DNA of 31,158 nucleotides from a virus. Numbering within the stretch: the first letter of the stretch is position 1; each line of letters opens with the position of its first letter. The stretch spans positions 1 to 31,158 of IMG/VR virus record IMGVR_UViG_3300027712_000092. One strand, 5' to 3'. Shown one piece after another: positions 2,594 through 4,896 of the stretch. The position numbers were made by a program, and so were the translations under genes. The notes under the pieces were generated by a model. It was not told the DNA's origin, did no database searches, and was given only the letters and a program-made list of their open reading frames with translations.

Positions 2594-2774
2594 GGATCAA
2601 GAAGATGAAGTTTTAAAACTTTACTACAATGGATTTGTAAATATGGAAAAGATTAGTTTAATTGTTAAATGTTCAGTTCCTACAGTAAGCAGAATAATTG
2701 GAGACTCTTTTGGCAACGGAATAAAATACAGCGAAAACTATTTAATCTTTGAAAGTAAAATAAATTGCAATTAA
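2571..2774 (+). CDS. 67-aa helix-turn-helix DNA-binding protein
   Basis: The stretch from EDEVLKLYYNG through SVPTVSRII (about residues 11-43) has the spacing of a helix-turn-helix of the sigma-region-4/resolvase type, with PTVSRII as recognition helix. I start at ATG 2571; a TTG two codons upstream is possible but less likely. It is the last gene before the promoter at 2775-2805, so control of that promoter or its own operon is plausible. This is inference. Confidence 0.68.
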   Translation: MNTKKITKDQEDEVLKLYYNGFVNMEKISLIVKCSVPTVSRIIGDSFGNGIKYSENYLIFESKINCN

Positions 2775-2805
2775 TTTGCATTTAATTAAAAAAGTATTAT
2801 ATTTG
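2775..2805 (+). promoter_or_regulatory. strong Bacteroidetes-type promoter
   Basis: TTTG at 2775-2778, a 19-base spacer, then TATATTTG at 2798-2805: a full match to the Bacteroidetes consensus. The predicted transcription start, around 2810-2812, coincides with the first base of the structured RNA at 2811-2897. Confidence 0.78.
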
Positions 2806-2810
2806 CATAA

Positions 2811-2897
2811 CAATATCGGTCAGGATATTTATAAAAAACATTAATAATCCCGACTATGCCAATACTGACCTATTGGATTTTAGTCGGGATATTTTTT
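2811..2897 (+). ncRNA. kissing-loop structured RNA, copy 1 (5' leader or sRNA)
   Basis: Hairpin 1 pairs AATATC (2812-2817) with GATATT (2824-2829), loop GGTCAG. An A-rich linker follows (2830-2846). Hairpin 2 pairs ATCCCGACTA (2847-2856) with TAGTCGGGAT (2881-2890), then CCAATA (2859-2864) with TATTGG (2871-2876), apical loop CTGACC. The two loops are exact reverse complements (6 bp, four G-C). Six T follow hairpin 2 at 2892-2897, so it could also work as an intrinsic terminator or attenuator 13 bases before the ATG at 2910. The same architecture with different sequence occurs at 4097-4170. Whether it is a separate small RNA or a regulatory leader cannot be decided from sequence. Confidence 0.7.
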
Positions 2898-2909
2898 AAA
2901 AACAATATT

Positions 2910-3353
2910 ATGGGAGCATCAAAAGGATTATTTGAATTAATGGGAATGCAAGAAATAGAAGTATCTAATTTCTTACCAACAAAAAAAGAAGTACAAACTT
3001 CTTCAAAACAATTTATTACTAATTTACTTGATAAAGGTGAAAGTGATAAAATAGAATTATTAGCACAAGCTAAAAGATTATCTGAAGCACTGGATGTTAT
3101 TACAACTGAACTACTAAAAGTTATTCCTTTAGAAAACTTTGAAGCTTATGGACTTAAAGGAACTTATAGAAATGGTGGCGACACAATTAACTATTTAGAT
3201 GATCCTATTTACCAGCAATTAAAAGCTGATTTAGATGCAAGGGCGGAATTATTAAAACTTGCTCTTAAACAAGACGTAATTGATGCATACGGCAATGATG
3301 TTCCTAAAGTTTCAACAACGCCAAGAAAATCAAGTTTGGCTATAACCTATTAA
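2910..3353 (+). CDS. 147-aa phage protein, replication region, unknown function
   Basis: Starts MGASKGLFELMGMQEIEV. The in-frame ATG at 2856 is rejected because it lies inside hairpin 2 of the leader RNA. It is predicted to be mostly helical (residues 25-70 and 105-125), with a glycine-rich YGLKGTYRNGGDT turn in the middle. It is followed 33 bases later by the SSB-like gene, and its expression should depend on the structured leader. Similar proteins next to SSB-like genes are familiar in Bacteroidetes phages, but I cannot name a function. Confidence 0.78.
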   Translation: MGASKGLFELMGMQEIEVSNFLPTKKEVQTSSKQFITNLLDKGESDKIELLAQAKRLSEALDVITTELLKVIPLENFEAYGLKGTYRNGGDTINYLDDPIYQQLKADLDARAELLKLALKQDVIDAYGNDVPKVSTTPRKSSLAITY

Positions 3354-3386
3354 ATTATAAATTATTAACACTTAAATATTAAAATT

Positions 3387-4013
3387 ATGGCAATTATTGC
3401 AACATCAAATGGAAGTACAAGTTTTGAACCAATAGCAACTGGAAACTATCCAGCACGTTGTTATTCTATGGTTCATTTAGGAACTATTGAAGAAAACATT
3501 TTAGGAACTTTAAAAAAATTAAATAAAGTTCGTATTACTTGGGAGTTACCTACAGAATTAAAAGTTTTTAAAGAAGAAAAAGGAGAGCAGCCACAAGTTA
3601 TTAGTAAAGAATTTACTTTATCATTACATGAAAAAGCAACTTTAAGAGGTTTTTTAAAAAATTGGAGAGGTAAAGATTTTACAGATGAAGAAGCTAAAGC
3701 ATTTGACATTGAAAAATTAGTTGGTGCTCCTTGTATGTTAAATATAACTCATAAAACTAAAAAAGATGGATCAGGTATTTATGCTGAAATAGGTTCAGTT
3801 TCTGCAATGCCTAAAGGATTTGTTTGTCCTGAATCAATTAATCCTGCATTTGTTTTTACTTATGAAAATTTTGATACTGATAAATTTGATTCTTTACCTG
3901 AATTTATGAGAAACAAAATGATTAATTCAGATGAATATAAATTAACTATGACTGGAGGTCAAGAAGTAGAAAGTCCTTCAAAAGAAGAAGATCATAATGA
4001 TTTACCATTTTAG
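3387..4013 (+). CDS. probable single-stranded DNA-binding protein
   Basis: 208 aa. The body is beta-rich with many aromatic and basic residues, as in OB-fold proteins. The C-terminus is an acidic, flexible tail ending DHNDLPF, resembling the DDDIPF tip by which SSB proteins recruit partners. No membrane or catalytic motif is visible. It lies between the 147-aa gene and a strong terminator, just upstream of the replication genes, consistent with coating ssDNA during replication or recombination. The assignment rests mainly on tail and context. The minus-strand ORF at 3473-3709 is a shadow. Confidence 0.72.
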   Translation: MAIIATSNGSTSFEPIATGNYPARCYSMVHLGTIEENILGTLKKLNKVRITWELPTELKVFKEEKGEQPQVISKEFTLSLHEKATLRGFLKNWRGKDFTDEEAKAFDIEKLVGAPCMLNITHKTKKDGSGIYAEIGSVSAMPKGFVCPESINPAFVFTYENFDTDKFDSLPEFMRNKMINSDEYKLTMTGGQEVESPSKEEDHNDLPF

Positions 4014-4022
4014 GAACTAAAA

Positions 4023-4051
4023 AAAACTTCCTATTAATTTAGGAAGTTTTT
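4023..4051 (+). terminator. intrinsic terminator after the SSB-like gene
   Basis: An 11-bp perfect stem pairs AAAACTTCCTA (4023-4033) with TAGGAAGTTTT (4040-4050), loop TTAATT, with T-run at 4047-4051. It starts ten bases after the stop codon. The flanking A and T runs make it potentially bidirectional. Confidence 0.85.
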
Positions 4052-4083
4052 ACATTTTATGTTTTTTATAAAATAAAAAGAAC

Positions 4084-4091
4084 TATATTTG
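4084..4091 (+). promoter_or_regulatory. promoter -7 box for the replication operon
   Basis: TATATTTG is identical to the -7 box at 2798-2805 and is again followed by GC. A matching -33 box is not clear (T-rich 4056-4067 only). It sits after a terminator and directly before the second kissing-loop RNA, so some promoter is expected here. Confidence 0.6.
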
Positions 4092-4096
4092 CTGAT

Positions 4097-4170
4097 GTAG
4101 AGGGGATGCTACTAAAAAATATTATAAATGCCTTATTACTTGCGACATCCCCCGCTTGTAGTAGGGCATT
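4097..4170 (+). ncRNA. kissing-loop structured RNA, copy 2 (5' leader or sRNA)
   Basis: Hairpin 1 pairs GTAG (4097-4100) with CTAC (4109-4112), loop AGGGGATG. The linker TAAAAAATATTATA (4113-4126) resembles that of copy 1. Hairpin 2 has 13 pairs (4127-4139 with 4158-4170, two G-U), a 2x2 T-T internal loop, then GCG/CGC and the apical loop ACATCCCC. GGGGATG of loop 1 is the exact reverse complement of CATCCCC in loop 2 (7 bp, five G-C). Unlike copy 1 there is no strong T-run; the ATG of the DUF6291 gene follows 16 bases later. Confidence 0.68.
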
Positions 4171-4185
4171 AACTTTTAATAAGAT

Positions 4186-4896
4186 ATGGCAAAAGACAAA
4201 AATTCATTTTTAGTTTATTCAAATTGGGAACAAACATTTGAAAATTTAACAGATGAAGAAGCAGGAAAATTAATTAAACATTTATTTAGGTATGTAAATG
4301 ATCGTGAACCAGTAGCACCTGATAGAATTACAGAAATAGTTTTTGAACCTTTAAAAGCAGTTTTGAAATTAGATTTAAAAAAGTATGAAAAAGTTATTGA
4401 AGAAAAATCTTATCAAGGTAAATTAGGTAATTTAAAACGTTGGAATAATGATTTATTTTTATTAGTTGAAAATAATACAATTACATTAGAAGAAGCAGAA
4501 ATTAAAGCATTAAATAGAAAAATATCGGTAAGCGATGAAAATATCGCTAATGCGATAAAAACACATAAATTTATCGCTGATAATGTAAATGATAATGTTA
4601 ATGTTAATGATATTTATATATTAGAAGAAAAAGAATTTTTGGAATTATTTAATAAATGTAGAAATCATTTTGATCAAATGACTACAAATTTACAATCACT
4701 TCAATCAGTAGAAAGAAGTTTATTAAATAATCAAAATAAAATTTATGATAAACAATATTTTATTGATGCACTAAGTGGTTTTTATAAACAAAAAAATATT
4801 TATCCAACAAATAGAATAAGACCTAAACACTTTTTAGAAAACCTTGAATTATATAATACTTGCTTTCACGAAAAACAACAACTTTTTAATAAATAA
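4186..4896 (+). CDS. DUF6291-type phage replication protein
   Basis: 236 aa. The N-terminal 95 residues (MAKDKNSFLVYSNWEQTF, then DEEAGKLIKHLFRYVND, FEPLKAVLKLDLKKYEK) match my memory of DUF6291, found on phage replication-initiation proteins of Bacteroidetes in the position of DnaD/O-like proteins. The C-terminal half is helical and contains LFNKCRNHFDQ and a basic stretch NRIRPKHFLENL. In this position, upstream of a RecA-fold ATPase, it probably recognises the origin or loads the replisome (inference). Expression runs through the structured leader at 4097-4170. Confidence 0.8.
   Translation: MAKDKNSFLVYSNWEQTFENLTDEEAGKLIKHLFRYVNDREPVAPDRITEIVFEPLKAVLKLDLKKYEKVIEEKSYQGKLGNLKRWNNDLFLLVENNTITLEEAEIKALNRKISVSDENIANAIKTHKFIADNVNDNVNVNDIYILEEKEFLELFNKCRNHFDQMTTNLQSLQSVERSLLNNQNKIYDKQYFIDALSGFYKQKNIYPTNRIRPKHFLENLELYNTCFHEKQQLFNK

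Follow-up and report, generated by a model that had tools for sequence, protein, structure and literature searches.

Two copies of a structured RNA element, each placed directly behind a promoter, were found in the window, a 31-kb virus record (31,158 nucleotides) whose relatives are Flavobacterium siphophages. The copies belong to an RNA family whose existence is near certain and which is apparently undescribed. With somewhat better than even confidence, we interpret them from their sequence as phage cis-regulatory leaders, namely transcription attenuators with an intramolecular kissing loop.

Both copies lie on the plus strand downstream of an intergenic, Bacteroidota-type -7 promoter box (TATATTTG, 2798..2805 and 4084..4091), which is followed by the same parts in the same order: a 5' hairpin (P1), an A/U-rich linker of 14-17 nt and a long hairpin (P2) topped by a further stem (P3). 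The loop at the apex of P3, called K', matches the reverse complement of the P1 loop, called K, at every base. In copy 1, P1 (2812..2829) starts 6 nt after the TTTG of the box and consists of 6 bp (AATATC with GATATT) closing the loop K, GGTCAG (2818-2823). The linker TATAAAAAACATTAATA (2830..2846, 17 nt) leads to a terminator-like P2/P3 hairpin (2847..2890) with K' CTGACC (2865-2870), followed by A and six T (2891..2897) and by a gene for a 147-aa protein of unknown function that is conserved in Flavobacterium phages (2910..3353). This copy scored 40.9 bits in cmsearch with a covariance model that did not have it among its seeds. An ATG within its P2 hairpin is in frame with the gene and would lengthen the product to 165 aa (2856-3353); translation from this ATG would pass through the terminator hairpin, and it is likely a spurious start.

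In copy 2, the gap between TTTG and P1 is 5 nt, and P1 (4097..4112) has 4 bp (GTAG with CTAC) and an 8-nt loop composed of A and the K sequence GGGGATG (4102-4108). The linker TAAAAAATATTATA (4113..4126, 14 nt) is followed by the P2/P3 hairpin (4127..4170; 64.5 bits in cmsearch, with copy 2 itself among the seeds of the model), whose 8-nt P3 loop (4145-4152) is A plus the K' sequence CATCCCC (4146-4152). The U-tract AACTTTT (4171..4177) is weak and displaced, and close relatives of this copy show AACTTTT to AATTTTTTT at the same position. The gene downstream (4186..4896) encodes a DUF6291 replication-protein-like product (Pfam PF19808, E 5.6e-21) whose relatives are annotated as replication protein. 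The sequence-only reading had described two copies with promoter box, 5' hairpin, linker and long 3' hairpin, exactly complementary loops and, in copy 1, a run of six T at the end; all of these parts are present, the loops and the T run being readable directly from the sequence. Fully paired 6-nt loops and 8-nt loops of A plus 7 nt resemble the kissing geometries of TAR/TAR* and of ColE1 RNAI/RNAII.

The two copies fold as had been noted, with energies of -25.9 (copy 1) and -24.9 kcal/mol (copy 2) and z-scores of -5.4 and -3.7, respectively; none of 200 shuffles was equally stable. With a score that combines structure and kissing, they occupied the top two places in the window (64.1 and 60.2), and they alone among the high-scoring places have a promoter. 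When the complete window was dinucleotide-shuffled 3617 times, the best scores had a 99th percentile of 51.2, and a score of at least 60 was reached at only 3 places. A chance origin of the architecture was ruled out by these shuffles together with those of the family scans described below. The copies are also not DNA repeats or mobile units, their sequences being unrelated to each other. With 2760-4200 as query, the virus record returned only this span itself and one 30-base minus-strand self-match of a terminator at 4022-4051, and the two K sequences occur elsewhere in the genome only as isolated short matches. This terminator (AAAACTTCCTATTAATTTAGGAAGTTTTTAC), an ordinary strong intrinsic one, ends the transcription unit just 5' of the second promoter and offers a useful comparison for P2 within the window. 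A promoter-like intergenic box at 162 (TTAAATTTGC) precedes a plain short leader devoid of the kissing element, so that the element does not simply accompany each promoter.

Viral contigs with relatives of the downstream genes were collected and scanned for the architecture; they showed the same promoter box and arrangement with entirely different loops. A scan anchored on TAnnTTTG sites at a similar distance, in which larger loops were allowed and shuffled sequence served as control, yielded 74 matches against 1 in shuffles for the first set of loci (score of at least 44) and 96 against 1 for an enlarged set (score of at least 48). At a listing threshold of 46, about 94 non-redundant elements with 61 different K sequences were obtained from 2955 promoter sites. 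Across the family, P1 lies within a few nucleotides of the expected transcription start, the linker has a median length of 15.5 nt (51% A, 34% U) and the loops comprise 6-15 nt. Among isolated phages the element is carried by mumin6-1 (two copies), Harreka_1, elemoA_7-9A, tooticki6-1, lillamy9-1, morran9-1, filifjonk9-1 and Flavobacterium phage 11b. A variant leader in another contig (L084, 142-290) contains an extra hairpin (ACACCTA...TAGGTGT) inside the linker and retains K:K'. A possible distant member, seen by eye and unscored, lies 5' of a DUF6291 gene in Pedobacter sp. Leaf170 (L146, ~3850-4000), with a complementary loop of 10 nt and a much larger apical domain. In Rfam 15, the window gave no match at the gathering threshold and sub-threshold noise at a permissive one, and literature searches yielded no description of a kissing-loop leader family. 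That the pairing is retained while its sequence differs from virus to virus suggests a family of RNA switches so far undescribed.

Because a MAFFT alignment of the full membership left the helices out of register, N-padded members served as seeds of the covariance model. In 16 diverse members, which had been found and chosen by their pairing, 14 of 14 modelled stem pairs showed two-sided compensatory changes, and modelled positions were paired in 96.9% of cases versus 62% in shuffles (again with seeds chosen for pairing). The covariance model built from these members, which leaves out the kissing pairs, gave 35 non-redundant matches outside the seeds, 31 of which had K:K', a partly independent test of the kissing pair at the sequence level. 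The isolated K:K' duplex has a mean energy of -9.8 kcal/mol. The sequence-only reading had called for a covariance search and for homologues whose loops pair; both were thus obtained, the homologues from dozens of phages, and its proposal of a structured RNA under selection is borne out by covarying hairpins and a loop-loop pair that occurs at promoters in 61 sequence versions.

The loops tend, judged by sequence comparison, to change faster than the stems between close relatives. Outside K, copy 2 and its relative in L057 agree at 60 of 60 aligned positions; within K, two pairs differ, both compensated. Over 17 disjoint close pairs, double changes were found in 10 of 119 K pairs and in 5 of 296 stem pairs (p = 0.002), a comparison biased by the fact that detection requires an exact K:K' match of at least 6 nt. 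Before the replication operon, closely related isolates carry the K alleles GTGGAACG (mumin), GTGAGACG (tooticki, lillamy, filifjonk) and GTGAGAAG (morran), and every K allele at this locus in these five phages has a matching K'. Hypervariability of K as a universal rule was rejected: in the GGTCAG group K is conserved and the P1 stem changes, although the rule is true in several groups.

The sequence following P2 carries the functional assignment. Counted from the final G/C in P2, U is present at position 2 in 98% and at position 3 in 95% of the family and stays mostly at frequencies of 0.55-0.81 up to position 10; at least 6 U within 8 nt were found after P2 in 82% of elements as compared to 4.4% of random upstream segments. 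The 5' arm of P2 is A/C-rich and the 3' arm U/G-rich. In the family and in copy 1, a G/C-containing hairpin with a U-tract directly after it is therefore found between promoter and first gene, as is characteristic of an intrinsic terminator, and P2 looks like one by its sequence. Copy 2 departs from this pattern with AACTTTT only, which does not follow immediately; because its U-tract is displaced and short, termination at copy 2 and its close relatives may be weak. The end of P2 is mostly separated from the ATG by an A-rich stretch of about 10-50 nt, and since a strong U-tract at this distance 5' of the start codon is the prevailing arrangement, a transcription attenuator leader is the reading that fits the element best, one of four roles that had been offered beforehand.

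RNA starting from the TAnnTTTG promoter would, to judge by its position, have P1 at its extreme 5' end. Intrinsic termination at P2 would then end many transcripts as leaders of about 90 nt, and a regulated fraction would read on into the operon, often into replication genes. An alternative antiterminator hairpin was sought and rejected: pairing of upstream sequence with the 5' arm of P2 amounted to 0.27 in real and 0.27 in shuffled sequences. As no such pairing rises above shuffles, the kissing interaction is the candidate for the switch, and K:K' likely fulfils this role on the sequence evidence. K:K' could pair once K' exits the polymerase, at a time when the 3' arm of P2 is still unmade, and early kissing would topologically hinder the closure of P2, which spans 11-14 bp, about one helical turn or more. 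Early kissing should therefore favor read-through, and loss of K:K' would favor termination. Because K:K' and P2 are compatible on paper, we infer this effect on termination from timing and topology. Candidate triggers that might tip the balance are leader RNA acting in trans, a protein and the speed of transcription.

A sub-group of the DUF6291 leaders, together with a single leader that precedes a different gene start (L200), has a third K segment at the start codon, as in GTCGCAG-a-ATG, CTTCGAC-a-ATG and GTGCAG-att-ATG. The third K tracks K as K varies, covarying with K'; 6 non-redundant cases were found, a number reached in 0 of 5000 permutations. It is limited to a minority of the DUF6291 leaders, is absent from both copies in the window and is an optional addition. 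In this sub-group the third K at the start codon is complementary to K', so that K' could, by sequence, choose between P1 and the ribosome-binding site as its partner. Binding of K' to the third K would let one loop gate translation as well, and the complementarity suggests that K' is a functional, accessible loop.

The genes 3' of the element include DUF6291 replication-type genes, members of the P0001 family, HNH-type endonucleases, a methylase-like gene and large proteins of ~780 aa (types other than DUF6291 were judged by eye from the N-termini and from the mumin annotation). The element marks transcription units and is not tied to a single protein, and this speaks against a metabolite riboswitch. 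HNH-type-looking genes directly follow the leader in several relatives (L057 6348-6700, L003 4036, L110 3638 and L140 11674), as if such genes inserted between leader and operon and used the leader's promoter. Matches were found in 1 of 299 Flavobacteriaceae genomes (close to the beginning of contig 164) and in 1 of 8 Bacteroidota genomes (significant, on one contig near a DUF6291 gene), both searches having scored only a few first-look candidates and being limited in sensitivity; within this limit the element is essentially confined to phages.

A ligand- or protein-sensing riboswitch would agree with the 5' UTR location and with a terminator as expression platform. We consider it extremely improbable, as the downstream genes are very different and neither a family-wide conserved unpaired nucleotide nor an Rfam match was found; the sequence-only reading had recognised no described riboswitch class in it, in agreement with the Rfam result, and its suggestion of a ligand-sensing leader is not supported. 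A stabilizer role, with the 5' end locked in the kissing pair and early mRNAs thereby shielded from ribonucleases, appears quite unlikely to us: P1 a few nucleotides from the expected transcription start and a compact fold that leaves an unstructured A-rich stretch before the start codon would suit it, but the U-tract after P2 and the third K at start codons would be left unexplained, and in the limited search the host genomes make no use of the element. Two hairpins directly after phage promoters, together with the operon-end terminator at 4022-4051 downstream of copy 1, would also be expected if the folded leader bound RNA polymerase and caused downstream terminators to be ignored, as in phage HK022. 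Here, however, the loops vary freely and a U-tract follows, and we hold this reading to be very unlikely.

The terminated leader of about 90 nt might instead work as a small RNA that, through its K or K' loop, kisses nascent leaders or the start codons of read-through mRNAs made by the phage that encodes it. It would then control dosage or exclude phages sharing its K, similar to P4 CI RNA, P1 c4 RNA and IsrK. By analogy with IsrK and phage P4, an action in trans is plausible, and the third K at start codons, the faster change of K than of stems and the different K alleles on one scaffold in Muminvirus and Lillamyvirus isolates agree with it. The same K was never seen twice in one contig (0 of 23 pairs), but this is not significant and uninformative, since the background sharing of K is just 1.8%. 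Intramolecular K:K' would compete with pairing in trans, and no antisense promoter was seen: near copies 1 and 2 there is no minus-strand TAnnTTTG, the nearest lying at 4692 inside a gene. Muminphages are reported to be virulent and to lack lysogeny genes (PMC7077304); the element therefore cannot be a prophage immunity device only, and lysogenic immunity is not its general purpose. We regard self-regulation in trans as unlikely overall. Equally doubtful is the further proposal of a new RNA class in which the variable kissing pair would be a specificity code, with its own pair for each operon and lineage and terminated leaders acting on matching leaders or start codons only; if true, it would mean per-operon dosage control and competition among related phages. 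For a small RNA directed at host or defence RNA there is no support, as K changes together with its own K'. Of the interpretation in the sequence-only reading, the structured element and its expected homologues are supported and the attenuator is favored, whereas the ligand-sensing riboswitch, the pure stabilizer and the host or defence RNA target are not supported.

An attenuator leader of this kind would constitute an RNA-only layer of control that recurs in phages infecting Flavobacteria and further Bacteroidota, a group of hosts with poorly understood gene regulation. Its specificity would reside in a loop pairing of 6-10 nt that evolution has rewritten dozens of times, and the family thus represents a library of naturally evolved kissing pairs that share conserved scaffolds, with which RNA specificity can be studied and orthogonal attenuators built. 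With cultured carriers at hand (muminphages, 11b, Harreka_1, elemoA), the element is directly testable.

Parts of the architecture are shared with known systems. The guanidine-II riboswitch (mini-ykkC) also consists of two kissing-loop hairpins, with conserved ACGR loops and a ligand; here ACGR tetraloops are absent (6-15 nt, 61 K sequences) and no ligand is suggested. The put RNA of HK022, which acts in antitermination through the beta' subunit of RNA polymerase, comprises two hairpins with conserved residues directly downstream of phage promoters and is not known to have loop-loop pairing or a U-tract. The leaders described here likewise place two hairpins at the start of a phage transcript (early timing being assumed), but they have loop-loop pairing, a U-tract and loops that are not conserved. 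In P4 CI RNA immunity and P1 c4 RNA, the mutually complementary leader segments seqA-seqB-seqC control termination or translation. They recall K-K'-K as short complementary segments in a leader and belong to processed leader RNAs that act in trans, whereas an intrinsic U-tract and virulent phages are found here. Attenuators of pT181-type plasmids (PMC4878617) are similar in having a leader with a kissing-loop 5' hairpin and an intrinsic terminator after it, often before a replication gene; in the phage element the kissing partner is in the same RNA, and an antiterminator strand and an antisense promoter were not found. At the IsrK/AntQ locus of the Salmonella prophage Gifsy-1, a short terminated RNA, IsrK, and a longer read-through mRNA, which needs RNA-RNA pairing for its translation, arise from a single phage promoter (PMC4825925); a comparable arrangement is proposed here, with a possible gate on translation in the third-K sub-group. 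IsrK is a single locus, whereas the leaders of the Bacteroidota phages form a family in which the kissing loop is intramolecular, the loop sequences vary and the terminator stands directly before the operon.
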